DNA of 35,846 bases from a gamma proteobacterium HTCC2207 (lineage in GTDB: Bacteria; Pseudomonadota; Gammaproteobacteria; Pseudomonadales; Porticoccaceae), in NCBI GenBank assembly GCA_905182275.1, contig CAJJAU010000058.1, positions 1 through 35,846 of the forward strand. The letters run 5' to 3'. Position numbers and translations under genes: made by a program. Shown here piece by piece: positions 30,434 through 35,846 of the stretch (positions within the stretch are counted from its first letter, which is position 1; each line of letters opens with the position of its first letter). The notes under the pieces are model-generated. The model had not been told where the DNA came from, searched no databases, and saw only the letters and a program-made list of their open reading frames with translations.

Positions 30434-30673
30434 ATGGGATCTGAACGACCTTACTGCGTAGTTTGTGGTCGAATACGGTTTGTTGTCGCGGCAGGCTTAC
30501 TTATTTCTGTCCTTTTCGTCACGCGCACTGAAATCGACTTTTTAAAGGGTCTCGACCTGAATGAAATTTTATTCCAGATCATCTTCGGAGCATTTTTTGT
30601 AATCTGTGTGTTCAAAGCCTATCAAGAATTCTGGAAACCCAACAAGGAAAAGCCCGATGACTCAATCGAGTAA
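30434..30673 (+). CDS. Small two-helix membrane protein with CxxC motif, unknown function
   Basis: This 79-residue protein is not recognised. It has Cys8-x-x-Cys11 at the N-terminus, two probable membrane helices (about 16-30 and 45-64) and a charged C-terminus (KPNKEKPDDSIE). The ATG at 30434 is preceded by GGAG with 9-nt spacing, which decides this start over the upstream TTG at 30197. Its end overlaps the next gene by 17 bp, so they are very likely co-transcribed. Its position before the motA-like gene suggests a link to that module, which is inference only. Confidence 0.6.
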   Translation: MGSERPYCVVCGRIRFVVAAGLLISVLFVTRTEIDFLKGLDLNEILFQIIFGAFFVICVFKAYQEFWKPNKEKPDDSIE

Positions 30674-30914
30674 TTGTTGGCAATGTAAGCACTTTAGGAT
30701 CACCCATGAGCAGTCTCGACCCTACGCATGCGGCGCCATGGGATTTAAATCGAAAGGGCTCCCATGTCACGAAGTGTCCAAAATTGATGGTAATCGCTGT
30801 CTCAGTTTTTCGCCTAAAAGCACTTTAGCAGGGAAAGGTAGTCCGAAAGTCCCTCGATTATCGCCTTTAGCGTCAATGGGAAGTCCGATAAGAAGCGTCA
30901 GCCGTTATTTGTGA
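30657..30914 (+). CDS. Small Cys-rich protein, probable zinc-binding
   Basis: This 85-residue soluble protein has cysteines at 7, 10, 25, 37 and 48 in the pattern NCWQCKHF, PYACGAMGFKSK, LPCHEV and GNRCLSF. The pattern resembles small conserved proteobacterial proteins of unknown function that have a CxxCxxF start and a GFKSK core. Cys7, Cys10, Cys25 and Cys48 could form a metal site. The C-terminal 30 residues are Ser/Pro/Lys-rich and probably disordered. AAGGA precedes the ATG at good spacing, and the start overlaps the upstream gene by 17 bp. It lies 62 bp before the motA-like gene. Confidence 0.65.
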   Translation: MTQSSNCWQCKHFRITHEQSRPYACGAMGFKSKGLPCHEVSKIDGNRCLSFSPKSTLAGKGSPKVPRLSPLASMGSPIRSVSRYL

Positions 30915-30976: not shown

Positions 30977-31759
30977 ATGGATATTGCAAGTATTATTGGG
31001 CTAGCTATTTTTATTGCGGCTGTATATCTGGGGCTGTCTGATAATCCCGGGTGGGTTGATGCCTTCGTTAATCCTACATCCTTTTATATTGTTATTTTAG
31101 GAACGGTAGGTATTGTCCTCTATCGCTCAACTTTGGGCGAGTTCGCGACCATGTGGAGAGTGCTATTCGGGAAAATGTTTTGGCATAAAAGAGACAAACC
31201 AGAAGATCTTATTGATCAATTAGTAGAGTTAGCAGGGATCGCAAGAAAAGACGGCATGATTGCGCTGCAGAATGCGGAAATAAACAATCGCTTGATGGCA
31301 AAGGGAATTAGTGCACTTGTTGATGGCACAGACCCCGCTATTATTAAGTCCTCGTTGGAAAGAGATATGTATATTACGGCAAAGCGGCATGAAACTGCGC
31401 GCTCCACCATTAAATCTGCTGGGGATATTGCACCAGCAATGGGAATGATTGGCACTTTAATTGGGCTGGTAAATCTTTTAGGCAAAATGAACGAAGATCC
31501 GGAATCTATTGGACCAAGTATGTCAACGGCATTGTTGACCACTCTTTATGGGGCGGTTTTAGCCAACGCCTTATTTTTACCGGCGGCCGAGAAGCTTGAA
31601 AATTTCGCAAATGAAGAAAATCGTAATAGCCAATTGATTATTGAAGGCATTATGTTTATCCAGCGTGGGGGGAACCCTAGATTATTGGGTGATTTATTGT
31701 CAGCTTTTTTAAGTCCTAAATTAGCTAAAAAACGTGAATCAGAAGGTGCTGCGAGCTGA
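30977..31759 (+). CDS. MotA/PomA-family stator channel protein
   Basis: This 260-residue inner-membrane protein resembles PomA/MotA, the pentameric half of ion-driven rotary stators. Four membrane helices lie at about 3-20, 34-50, 150-170 and 183-203. The signature GDIAPAMGMIGTLIGLVNLL (149-168) and ALLTTLYGAVLANALFLP are close to PomA of Vibrio. The cytoplasmic loop keeps Arg90, but the position of MotA Glu98 is Gln98 and the next is Asn99, where PomA has two Glu. The C-terminus is short, unlike ZorA. It overlaps the following B-type gene by one base (TGATG). No flagellar genes are in the window, so a non-flagellar role is possible. Confidence 0.88.
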   Translation: MDIASIIGLAIFIAAVYLGLSDNPGWVDAFVNPTSFYIVILGTVGIVLYRSTLGEFATMWRVLFGKMFWHKRDKPEDLIDQLVELAGIARKDGMIALQNAEINNRLMAKGISALVDGTDPAIIKSSLERDMYITAKRHETARSTIKSAGDIAPAMGMIGTLIGLVNLLGKMNEDPESIGPSMSTALLTTLYGAVLANALFLPAAEKLENFANEENRNSQLIIEGIMFIQRGGNPRLLGDLLSAFLSPKLAKKRESEGAAS

Positions 31760-32829
31760 TGAGCTCTGACGTTGCGACCACTGAAGGCCAAGATCAACAG
31801 CTGGTTTTTGTTGAGGAAACTCGACTGCCACTTGACTGCCCAAAGTGTAAAAAGTTTGCTCCGGCCTGGATGACAACATTTGCCGACATGTCAACATTAC
31901 TGATGGCACTTTTTGCCATTTTGTACAGCTTTGCTCAGCAAGATGAAAAATCTAAAGCACTTATGCTCGGATCACTTAACGCACAATTTGGCGCTACAGT
32001 CATAGTCCCGACTATTAATATGCCAATCGCGCAAAGTATCATCTTTTCAGATACTGAAAGCGTCAACGATAAAAACTTAAAAGAAATAAGCGAGGATGAA
32101 ACGTTGCAGGCAGAGCAGAGCTTTATCTCTCTCAAGCAAACGTTGGCCGAAGAGATAGCTAAAGGAGAAGTGATCGTAAGAAAAGCTGACAATAAGATAG
32201 TTGTAGAATTACTTTCTTTTTCAAGTAAAGACAGTGTCAGCAAAGACTATTACTTGACTCAGAGCGTTCTTGATATTTCTGAGAAGGTGCTACTTGCTCA
32301 GGCGCAAATGACGACTGCAATAGAAGTCCGTAAGCAGGACCTCGCCGCTCTTGAGGCGGTCAAACAGCGGCGAAAAGAAGACGCAAAGAACCAGTATCAA
32401 AATATGGCAACAGATTTCGCGGCTGAGGTTTCAAGTGGGGCCTTAATTCTTGAATTAAAAGAGGAAAATCTCATCTTGCGATTGCCAGGAGAGGGATCAT
32501 TCGTATCAGGAAGTGCTTCTTTGCAGTCTCGTTTTAAAGATTTAGTGACGCGTATTGGTGAGAAGCTCAAAACATCTCGCGGAAGGATCAGGATTGAAGG
32601 CCATACAGACAACGTAAAGATTGCCTTTAGTGATCAGTTTAGGTCGAATTGGGATTTATCATCAGCACGTTCTGGTTCAGTGGGCTCTGTATTTCTTAAA
32701 GATCAAGGGATTGGTAGTGATCGCGTAGTGGTCGCTGGTTTTGCGGACTCAGTCCCTCTTGAGTCTAATGATACGGCCGCTGGCCGAGCGCGCAATCGGC
32801 GTATTGAGATTATTGTCCGTGGTTATTAA
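31759..32829 (+). CDS. MotB/PomB-family stator protein, first paralogue
   Basis: This 356-residue protein has one N-terminal membrane helix (about 36-58) with the ion-binding Asp43 in WMTTFADMSTLLMALFAIL. It ends in a C-terminal OmpA-like peptidoglycan-binding domain (about 240-356) with IEGHTDN (279-285) and GRARNRRIEI (342-351). A CPKC motif precedes the helix. Between helix and OmpA domain is a segment (about 129-160) that looks like a degenerate copy of the sequence just before the OmpA core (about 220-256). It overlaps the A-type gene by one base and lies 20 bp before a second, similar B-type gene. Confidence 0.87.
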   Translation: MSSDVATTEGQDQQLVFVEETRLPLDCPKCKKFAPAWMTTFADMSTLLMALFAILYSFAQQDEKSKALMLGSLNAQFGATVIVPTINMPIAQSIIFSDTESVNDKNLKEISEDETLQAEQSFISLKQTLAEEIAKGEVIVRKADNKIVVELLSFSSKDSVSKDYYLTQSVLDISEKVLLAQAQMTTAIEVRKQDLAALEAVKQRRKEDAKNQYQNMATDFAAEVSSGALILELKEENLILRLPGEGSFVSGSASLQSRFKDLVTRIGEKLKTSRGRIRIEGHTDNVKIAFSDQFRSNWDLSSARSGSVGSVFLKDQGIGSDRVVVAGFADSVPLESNDTAAGRARNRRIEIIVRGY

Positions 32830-32849
32830 CCATATCGAGGTCAGTTTAG

Positions 32850-33821
32850 ATGCCTGAAGAAGCGATAATTGAAGAAGAGTGCCCACCCTGCGGTTCCGGA
32901 GCACCGATGTGGATGACCACATTCTCTGATATGGCAACGTTGCTAATGGCACTTTTCGCAATGTTAATTGCGTTTACAGAAATGCAAAAGAAAGAATCCA
33001 TGATGGCCATGGAAGGAGACGGCCGAAAAGATAGAGGTGTTCAAAATGAAATTGAGTCAGACAAGGCGCCATCGAACTCAGGCTCTGATTCTGGTTCTGG
33101 AAAATCAGACACCGATCAAGGTTTTGAGGTAGTTGTTGAGGCCTTGGCCAAAGAAATAGAGGAGGGCTCCGTTAAAGTCCTCATTAACAACGAACGTATC
33201 GTTGTCCAAGTAGATTCGGCTACTGCTTCAAGTGCCGATGCGTCCAGAGTTCAGCAAGATCAGCTCGAAATTTATCTTAAAGTGGCTCAAGCACAAGAGA
33301 ACATAAATGTTGCAGTGAAAGTGGAGCAGGAGTCAGACGGCGTTATTGCGGATAGCGAGGTATGGGAGGCAATGTTTTCGGCGCAATATCGAGACATTCG
33401 TGAGAATTTGTCGGAGGCGATCGACAACAACTCCGTTGAGGTTATTCGTGAAGGCGATAAAATTATTGTTCGATTGGCATCCAAGGGTTCTTTCAAAAGT
33501 GGTGCAGCAGAATTGCAGCCTGGATTTGGACTTGTGTTGAATGAAGTCGGCGCAGCTATTGATGATGTCGAGGGTATGATTACCATTGAAGGGCATACCG
33601 ATAATGTTCCTGTAGGCTTCAGCATGAGATTTAGAACTAACTGGGATCTTTCGGCAGCCCGGTCGGGCGCGGTGGCAGATTATCTCTTGGGTGAGTATAC
33701 ATTTAACAGTGGACTAATGGTCACAGGGCTAGCCTCTACTAGACCGTTAATGACTAACAATACTGCAGAAGGGCGTGCTAGAAATCGACGGATTGAAATT
33801 GTTGTCGATGGTAGTTACTAG
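32850..33821 (+). CDS. MotB/PomB-family stator protein, second paralogue
   Basis: This 323-residue protein has the same plan as its upstream neighbour. A CPPC motif is followed by one membrane helix (about 20-43) with Asp27 in WMTTFSDMATLLMALFAM, then an acidic/Ser-Gly linker (about 55-92). The C-terminal OmpA-like domain (about 203-323) has IEGHTDNVPVGF and GRARNRRIEIVV. It too has an internal repeat: residues about 99-130 resemble about 187-222. GAGG precedes the ATG at good spacing. All residues needed for ion transfer and cell-wall anchoring appear intact, so it is not an obvious pseudogene. Confidence 0.87.
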   Translation: MPEEAIIEEECPPCGSGAPMWMTTFSDMATLLMALFAMLIAFTEMQKKESMMAMEGDGRKDRGVQNEIESDKAPSNSGSDSGSGKSDTDQGFEVVVEALAKEIEEGSVKVLINNERIVVQVDSATASSADASRVQQDQLEIYLKVAQAQENINVAVKVEQESDGVIADSEVWEAMFSAQYRDIRENLSEAIDNNSVEVIREGDKIIVRLASKGSFKSGAAELQPGFGLVLNEVGAAIDDVEGMITIEGHTDNVPVGFSMRFRTNWDLSAARSGAVADYLLGEYTFNSGLMVTGLASTRPLMTNNTAEGRARNRRIEIVVDGSY

Positions 33822-34161: not shown

Positions 34162-35846
34162 ATGCACAAGCCCATGCAGATTAGCGTAAAAACACTACTG
34201 GCATTGAGTTTAGCAATGCTGCTTTCCGCTTGTGGCGGTGGCGGTGGCGGTACAAGTACAAAAGCACTTGCTCCAGCACCAACTGTCTCTATTTCTGCAT
34301 CATCGACATCAGCTATTGTGACAGGGATATCAAATCTTAGTTGGTCTTCTAGTAATGCAACATCATGTTCTGCTTCTGATGCCTGGAGTGGAGCTAAATC
34401 GGCGTCTGGAAATGAGGATGTAACGATTAATGATTCTGGCAATAATACCTTTACCATCACTTGTTCTGGTGCTGGCGGATCAAAATCTGCTTCAGTCTCT
34501 GTTGACGGATATAGAAATACGGCTGGAGTAGTTGTAGATGGCTATATTTCTGGCGCTAAGGTTTTTGTTGATGAAGATGATAGTTGGGTAGCTGACGCAG
34601 ATGAGTCGACGACGACTTCAGATAACGACGGTGCATTTACCATCAAATATACAAAAGGGAATTTGGTTTCTATTGGAGGCACTGATATAGATTCTCAAAC
34701 CCCGCTAGACAGCTTACTTTACGTACACAAGCTAACCAGCTACTCAGACTTTAAAGTTGTAACACCATTAACCTCTCTTATGGCCTTTATGGACGATCCG
34801 TCCAAAGTTAATGCAGCCTTGGGGGTTGACAGCTCTATTGACATAGCATCCTTTGATCCGGTCGCTAATAAAGGTGATGGTGGCATCAACGATTACCTCT
34901 ATGAGAAAGGCAATCAACTTACGGTTTTGGCATATGCGCTACAAAATATTACTAATGATCTAGCCGCAACGACCGAGACAACACAAGATTATTTTAAGGC
35001 GATTGCCGTAGAGGTAGAAAAAGAACATACAGAAACTTCTGGTAAGGTGGATATAGAAGCTGAAGAATTTGTTACTAAGGCACTTGAAAATGTTGTTACA
35101 AATAAAGTATTAGCTATAAGTGAGGAGGCTAAATCCAATGCGATAAAAGCGTTGACGGGAGTTATGCCTATTATTGAAGTGAAATCCTCTAATGATCTAA
35201 CTACCTCAATAATACGTTTTGCACTTACAACTTTGCAGACAGACATTATAACAATTACCAATGGCTCAGCTTCCTCTGACGTTATCACCAGTTACACCGA
35301 AGATATTTTAAACTATATATCAACTGATCAATTCGTGGATCCTAACGAAATTGCACCCGACATTACAGCAATTGCAGATAATGAAACGGTTCTGGAAGAT
35401 ATGAGCGTCAACATTACTGTGACTGCTAATGATTCTTTTGTGCATACTGCTCCCTTTAGTTTGACTACAACAAACCCGGAAAACGGTACGGCCAGTCTTT
35501 TATTCAGTAATCAAATTAGTTATTCACCCTCCGAAAATTATAATGGCCTCGATTCTTTTACCTATACGCTTATCCAAGGGGAAAAAGTTTCATCTGCCGA
35601 GGTAGTAGTTACTATTGATGCAGTAAATGATAAGCCATCTATAGACACAGCCGCTGTAATTGATGCAGCCGAAAACCAAACCGCAGTAACAAACATTGCA
35701 GTATCAGATGTTGATGTTGCTGACAGTTTAACTTTGACATTGAGCGGCACAGATGCAGAGAGTTTTGATTTATCAGCAGGCAATGCCTTAAGCTTTAAAG
35801 AGGCTCCCGATTATGAATCTAAGAATTCATATTCTATTACCCTAAC
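34162..35846 (+). CDS. Large cadherin-like surface lipoprotein, 5' part
   Basis: The gene starts at ATG 34162 with GGAG 5 nt upstream and stays open to the right edge (561 codons visible), so it is partial. The N-terminus is a lipoprotein signal ending in LLSAC (Cys24), followed by a run of six Gly. Residue +2 is Gly, not Asp, which suggests export to the outer membrane. A Thr/Asp-rich segment with VFVDEDDSWVADADES and SDNDGAF (about 137-158) resembles calcium-binding SdrD/CNA-B-like modules. From about 400 there is a cadherin/tandem-95-like repeat (TVLEDMSVNITVTANDS, NYNGLDSFTYTL and AVNDKP). A cadherin-like module with DVDVADSLTLTLSG and APDYESKNSYSITL follows. It is probably an adhesin; ligand is unknown. 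Confidence 0.85.
   Translation, partial: MHKPMQISVKTLLALSLAMLLSACGGGGGGTSTKALAPAPTVSISASSTSAIVTGISNLSWSSSNATSCSASDAWSGAKSASGNEDVTINDSGNNTFTITCSGAGGSKSASVSVDGYRNTAGVVVDGYISGAKVFVDEDDSWVADADESTTTSDNDGAFTIKYTKGNLVSIGGTDIDSQTPLDSLLYVHKLTSYSDFKVVTPLTSLMAFMDDPSKVNAALGVDSSIDIASFDPVANKGDGGINDYLYEKGNQLTVLAYALQNITNDLAATTETTQDYFKAIAVEVEKEHTETSGKVDIEAEEFVTKALENVVTNKVLAISEEAKSNAIKALTGVMPIIEVKSSNDLTTSIIRFALTTLQTDIITITNGSASSDVITSYTEDILNYISTDQFVDPNEIAPDITAIADNETVLEDMSVNITVTANDSFVHTAPFSLTTTNPENGTASLLFSNQISYSPSENYNGLDSFTYTLIQGEKVSSAEVVVTIDAVNDKPSIDTAAVIDAAENQTAVTNIAVSDVDVADSLTLTLSGTDAESFDLSAGNALSFKEAPDYESKNSYSITL

Follow-up and report, generated by a model that had tools for sequence, protein, structure and literature searches.

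A contig of 35,846 bp from the gamma proteobacterium HTCC2207 (CAJJAU010000058.1, assembly GCA_905182275.1, Porticoccaceae), analysed as a whole and hereafter called the window, encodes one PomA/MotA-like A subunit followed directly by two extended PomB-like B subunits, B1 and B2. This triple is very probably a flagellar stator operon with two working B paralogues, and the likeliest mode of the pair, on which our judgement is evenly poised, is a B1/B2 heterodimer inside one A ring. The gene of A (30977..31759, forward strand, 260 amino acids (aa)) was recognized as an open reading frame (ORF) with domain matches; B1 (31759..32829, forward strand, 356 aa) overlaps it by 1 bp (TGATG), and B2 (32850..33821, forward strand, 323 aa) follows after a gap of 20 bp. 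All three ORFs are intact, and the coordinates and the domain matches agree with the original prediction, made from the DNA letters, of one A and two tandem B genes with this overlap and spacing. The tandem pair is not a product of chance, because it recurs in 38 loci of the Porticoccaceae/SAR92 family (37 genomes, the window included) and also in other families. The A gene beside the pair was called as an ORF in 34 of the 38 family loci and was found by tblastn in the remaining four, the gene caller having kept an antisense ORF in its place.

Domain composition and divergence of the two B proteins

The A protein matched the Pfam family MotA_ExbB (7.6e-27), and its closest solved structure was Vibrio PomA (8bri, 1.1e-61), with a nearly full-length alignment. 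Both B proteins matched MotB_plug (B1 7.8e-13, B2 1.5e-10) and OmpA (1.8e-14 and 7.4e-13, respectively), with no ExbD match listed for either in the family search. Their closest solved structures were those of Vibrio PomB (3.6e-34 and 7.9e-36), reached through the transmembrane (TM) and OmpA domains, and the membrane Asp (residue 43 in B1, residue 27 in B2) aligns with the TM Asp of that protein. The claim that both B proteins keep this Asp and an intact OmpA-like domain was thereby confirmed. Indeed, the TM Asp, the MotB_plug region and an OmpA-like peptidoglycan (PG)-binding domain were found in B1 and B2 alike, both in the sequences and in AlphaFold2 models, and for B1 also by Foldseek, which retrieved the periplasmic domains of PomB, TssL and MotB with the B1 model.

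Across the tandem loci, the TM Asp pattern was present in 60/61 B1 and 60/61 B2 proteins; the two misses were a B2 with unread assembly letters (G105) and a B1 whose called ORF begins after the TM Asp (G099). Both the Asp and the PG motifs are intact in B1 and B2 of the window. Loss of PG binding in one of the two B proteins had been considered as a proof of heterodimers and was dropped: in the alignment, the B1 of G019, L124, L130 and L133 differ only by GHTD to GHSD. Pattern searches for the PG motif miss rows through such substitutions, and a stricter pattern missed more of them. A well-conserved CxxC was also seen directly before the TM helix of the B proteins.

The equivalents of PomA T158, T185 and T186, whose numbering and role as Na+-type threonines we take as given, were present in 53/53 A proteins of the tandem loci. 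Because A keeps these residues, the coupling ion of the stator is presumably Na+. The positions R88 and E96 of PomA were taken to be the FliG-contact charges. An equivalent of R88 was found in all 53 A proteins and that of E96 in 51 of them; the window A keeps the FliG-contact Arg/Lys but has Gln at the E96 position.

Both B proteins carry an extra module between the plug and the PG-binding domain, located at about residues 112–192 in B1 (PG-binding domain about 205–354) and 87–160 in B2 (about 176–320). This module resembles the first half of an OmpA-like domain, with z values against shuffles of 3.0 for the window B1 and 7.0 for the window B2. Among the 107 B proteins with the anchor pattern (15 of 122 were without it and were left out), z exceeded 3 in 67 and did not in the other 40. 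Vibrio PomB matches B1 and B2 only in two stretches that flank the module. In the AlphaFold2 single-chain models (mean predicted local distance difference test score 80.5 for B1 and 79.2 for B2), the stretch that links the TM helix to the PG-binding domain forms a unit, for the most part well predicted, with the order helix, strands, helix, strand. The module predates the duplication of B, because single-B proteins of family f15 are covered by its profile as well.

The two B proteins of the same genome diverged unevenly along their length, as seen in 13 Porticoccaceae pairs. The stretch from CxxC through the TM helix was 91–100% identical in seven pairs and 59–80% in the other six (65% in the window), the PG-binding domain was 40–66% identical and the extra module 22–38%. 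At six sites, B1 and B2 carried different residues, each fixed to at least 80%. The plug/linker region of B2 is shortened in the window and its sisters.

Flagellar context and a single old duplication

The relative G018 shows what usually surrounds the triple. Upstream, it has largely the genes of the window (recF, gyrB, glyS, glyQ, ubiA, yaaA and others), and downstream come fliS, fleQ-like genes, fliE, fliF, fliG, fliM, fliN, fliP, fliR, flhB, flhA, flhF, fliA and flgB to flgJ; these names come from reading the translations, with fliG alone checked by a family search. The same flagellar neighbours were seen at the loci of other relatives, where the triple lies within or beside flagellar clusters. 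Family-wide, MotB_plug was matched in 67 of 112 genomes and FliG_C likewise in 67 of 112. FliG_C was present in 34/37 tandem-bearing family genomes, missing from the window's genome (G000), G016 (82% complete) and G051 (80%); among the 24 such genomes with a completeness of at least 90%, it was present in 23, the miss being G000. Outside the family, all 12 genomes tested had FliG_C, including the seven with a tandem pair (families f40 and f44, 7/7).

Moreover, exactly two MotB_plug matches occurred in 35 of the 37 tandem genomes, that is, none beyond the pair itself. The exceptions were G044, with two tandem loci, and G051, where a third match lies close to the start of a contig. The original prediction would be refuted by a triple confined to flagellated genomes that lack any other stator, together with separate homodimeric stators of B1 and B2; the first of these is the pattern found in the relatives, the window's genome being without a flagellar marker. 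Its suggestion that the cluster may drive something other than a flagellum gained no support, and a non-flagellar motor was rejected for the group on the flagellar context and FliG. The heteromeric rotary motor that it proposed is possible and now better motivated, with two complete, functional-looking B proteins conserved for long beside one A.

Some observations on flagellar systems in these genomes are of separate note. The contigs C55 and C93 of G044 carry its two tandem-B loci together with two FliG genes, from either two flagellar systems or mixed strains. G012, G014, G045 and G003 have FliG_C and no MCPsignal match, and may swim without classical chemoreceptors; the single MCPsignal match of other family genomes occurs also in genomes without FliG_C (G040, G058).

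The phylogenies point to a single origin of the pair. In a tree of 112 B proteins, the first genes formed a clade of 33 rows and the second genes a clade of 30 rows, each with a support of 99. Each of the 29 tandem loci represented here by both of its proteins was split between the two clades, including records labelled Halieaceae, Pseudohongiella and OM182, and the remaining five rows within the clades (L089, L109, L111, L114 and G330) belong to loci cut by contig ends. A single-B locus with intact flanks was found in neither clade; single-B proteins of Betaproteobacteria, Alphaproteobacteria (SAR116 and others), Litorivicinaceae, Oceanospirillaceae and Methylococcales fell outside both. An 85-protein tree of the family placed 37/38 B1 and 38/38 B2 in two groups with mirrored branching, the B1 of G019 lying outside on a very long branch. 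When other families were added, the B1 of Porticoccaceae, f40 and f44 grouped together (98), as did their B2 (99), with the single-B families f15 and f38 outside. All trees were made by a quick method with support from the Shimodaira–Hasegawa-like approximate likelihood ratio test only, and long branches are unsure, above all that of G019 in the 85-protein tree. The 112-row tree left out 15 loci judged to repeat genomes already in the set, as well as B fragments below 250 aa. Judged from these trees, B1 and B2 descend from an extended PomB that was duplicated in tandem once, long ago.

Both copies are, by their substitution rates, evidently under purifying selection. The ratio of nonsynonymous to synonymous rates (dN/dS), estimated in seven close pairs whose dS stayed below 1 (in the other five, dS was above 2 or saturated), was 0.03–0.08 for B1 and 0.03–0.09 for B2; for A, it was 0.00–0.03 (six pairs). 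One B can be enough, as single-B sister lineages with FliG exist.

The searches covered 390 genomes of the order (E 1e-60) and 369 of the class (E 1e-40). The class sample yielded no tandem pair beyond the window's locus at this cut-off, which a weaker second B would escape. The genome scan for further lineages used the best 80 of 548, so the lineage spread given here is a lower bound. The stator genes of L106, L114 and L125 (labelled Hydrogenophaga, Klebsiella and Rhodobiaceae) group with those of aquatic Beta- or marine Gammaproteobacteria, and some of these labels may be wrong.

Mode of the two B proteins

If B1 and B2 share one ring, five A subunits would enclose one B1 and one B2 as a heterodimeric axle. 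With ion-carrying helices that are much alike and periplasmic parts that are not, the two chains would give the stator unlike sides, each with its own plug control and its own contacts to the cell wall or the rotor ring. The shared ring is favoured by the single A beside the pair, the fixed gene order and the tight spacing, and also by the findings that neither clade contains a single-B locus with intact flanks and that one B suffices in sister lineages. A stronger version, in which an obligate A5B1B2 stator became fixed in several marine gammaproteobacterial lineages, with unlike axle faces that anchor or gate differently and possibly with a tie to the neighbouring ClC and voltage-gated K+-channel genes (see below), is put forward tentatively, as somewhat short of an even chance. 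If true, it would break the two-fold symmetry assumed for flagellar stators.

Several observations weigh against a flagellar stator with a heterodimeric axle. The membrane Asp and the PG-binding motif are retained in B1 as well as in B2, which separate homodimers would equally need, and the accessible part of a study on Aquifex reports that the TM regions of its MotB proteins each work with MotA alone in Escherichia coli chimeras (PMC4525482). Mirror-tree partial correlations were 0.64 for B1–B2 given A, 0.59 for A–B1 given B2 and 0.19 for A–B2 given B1 (35/61 loci, 26 being left out for having no A or FliS, or a short A or B2); this signal is not specific, and the mirror-tree was rejected as evidence for the heterodimer. 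Five family genomes (G029, G047, G052, G053 and G103) have a single MotB_plug match, each less than 1 kb from a contig start. Finally, FliG_C, Flg_bb_rod and FHIPEP had no match in the window's own 91% complete assembly. Like the five single-match genomes, seven others of the family, from the genera g1, g2 and g14 (G001, G033 (92% complete), G101, G102, G108, G110 and G111), do not fit a simple picture, as they have FliG_C and no MotB_plug match.

Alternatively, two separate stators might be built with the same A, A5(B1)2 and A5(B2)2, and one swapped for the other as load, salt or the state of the wall changes; in this case, B1 and B2 would differ in how they are anchored and in how the plug is controlled. 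Similar constraint on both B proteins, each with its Asp and PG motif, is consistent with this, as are the Aquifex chimeras and the concentration of B1/B2 divergence in the periplasmic parts; stator exchange is known in Bacillus for MotAB/MotPS, according to a source available in part. Facultative alternatives should, however, be lost occasionally, and single-B loci inside the two clades occur only at contig ends; moreover, only one A stands beside the pair in the loci read. We regard exchange between homodimers as possible but rather doubtful. It is improbable that the second B merely raises the supply of B, with B1 and B2 interchangeable in any combination. The near-identity of the TM region in seven of the 13 pairs would suit such redundancy, but the two deep B clades are kept apart, and both the differently fixed sites and the low identity of the extra modules argue against it.

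A further reading concerns the window's genome (2.0 Mb, 88 contigs, 91% complete), in which the flagellum may be gone and the triple a relic or the drive of another structure. As the original prediction stated, no flagellar gene was seen among the other ORFs of the window, judged by reading their translations, though this contig ends 2 kb past B2. The usual synteny after B2 is interrupted: a large lipoprotein-like gene with a Big_9/cadherin-like domain (34162..35846, forward strand), which runs off the contig, occupies the place of fliS and further flagellar genes in relatives, and its best relative in G018 sits on another contig. Together with the three unmatched flagellar markers and the Gln that replaces the FliG-contact E96 in 2/53 A proteins, the window's among them, this would agree with a loss. 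On the other side, the Asp and PG motifs of B1 and B2 are intact, and the branch lengths of G000 resemble those of its sisters G002 and G003, both with FliG_C. The contig ends soon after B2, and by its estimated completeness the assembly lacks about 9% of the genome, so that the missing markers may reflect either an assembly gap or a recent loss. Chemoreceptors gave no information on whether G000 has lost its flagellum, as the four FliG_C-bearing genomes named above likewise had no MCPsignal match. A relic or a non-flagellar drive is considered very improbable.

The pair matters because models of flagellar stators take the two B chains to be equivalent. In these marine lineages (SAR92 and kin), one A gene is followed by two unlike B genes that have both been retained, and nearly all genomes examined showed no other stator; their sister lineages use one B. 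The group thus offers a natural test case of whether both B chains must match and whether asymmetry alters gating, anchoring or direction.

Neighbouring genes and comparison with known systems

Genes linked to the stator were counted in loci with at least 4.5 kb downstream of it (46 tandem and 35 single-B loci); as the loci are related, the counts are not independent. A gene for a chloride channel or transporter of the ClC type (Voltage_CLC + CBS) lay downstream of B2 in 36/46 tandem loci versus 0/35 single-B loci (e.g., L015:14993-16783), and a voltage-gated K+-channel gene (Ion_trans) in 27/46 versus 7/35 (e.g., L015:18375-19280). One or two proteins of each kind were family-searched and the others were assigned by BLAST. 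KCNQ and Kv chains head the PDB matches of the K+-channel protein, and the VGYGD filter was present in four copies examined, the L119 copy being without that string. Similar K+ channels were also seen near some SAR116 single-B stators. The window ends before the position of these genes. The linkage hints at joint management of the motor, presumably driven by Na+, and of membrane potential or ion balance; a search of the open-licence literature by title found no paper on a link between K+-channel and flagellar-motor genes.

In many loci of Gamma-, Beta- and Alphaproteobacteria, a gene for an Lcl_C-type lipoprotein lies upstream of A in divergent orientation (e.g., L016:2927-3511); it is absent there in the window, G018, G016, G045, G002 and G003, and its product is a possible stator partner. 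In the same neighbourhood, a gene for a Sel1-repeat protein was observed (L015:16861-17556 and kin). Its identification as MotX was rejected, the match being weak (21 bits versus a cut-off of 330, E 1.9e-4) with no MotX chain among the PDB matches; a MotX-like role is possible and weakly supported. Upstream of A, the window has two small ORFs for which a Pfam scan gave no family; one Cys-containing ORF (30606..30914, forward strand) has similar ORFs just upstream of A in other families.

Among known systems, the Na+-driven polar flagellar stator PomA/PomB of Vibrio (8bri, 8brd, 8zyv) is alike in the nearly full-length match of A and in the TM and OmpA matches of B. In contrast to it, there are two B genes here, each B has the extra half-OmpA module, and the window proteins stay below the NCBIfam cut-offs (A 261.9 versus 341 for the PomA equivalog; B1 210.1 and B2 206.9 versus 259 for the MotB subfamily). 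The anti-phage motor ZorAB of Zorya is akin to MotA/MotB, and B1 and B2 match ZorB models through the OmpA domain; a role in defence was rejected, as A matched no PADLOC model, including ZorA, no partner effector gene was seen on reading the window, and the context in relatives is flagellar.

Motors with one A and two B subunits are known already, and the arrangement is not unprecedented. In Myxococcus, AglRQS has one MotA-type and two B-type subunits, whose homo- or heterodimeric state is given as unknown in the accessible part of one report (PMC9389320); AglQ and AglS are of the TolR/ExbD type and drive gliding, according to an excerpt of another (PMC3169522). The parallel with AglQRS drawn by the original prediction thus extends to the subunit count and stops at the kind of B, as B1 and B2 are not of the TolR/ExbD type but combine MotB_plug with OmpA and lie beside flagellar genes in relatives. 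The closest likeness is the motA/motB1/motB2 operon of Aquifex aeolicus, as far as the available portions of its descriptions go (PMC4525482, PMC4987623): it is flagellar, has one A and two tandem B, and the TM parts of its B proteins are nearly identical while the periplasmic parts diverge (PMC4525482). The duplication studied here probably arose independently of that one, because it took place inside the proteobacterial extended-B group, as placed by a B tree built from proteins other than those of Aquifex. What is added to these systems is the spread of the arrangement in marine clades, the extra half-OmpA module of the B proteins and the ClC and K+-channel genes that many relatives carry near the stator.

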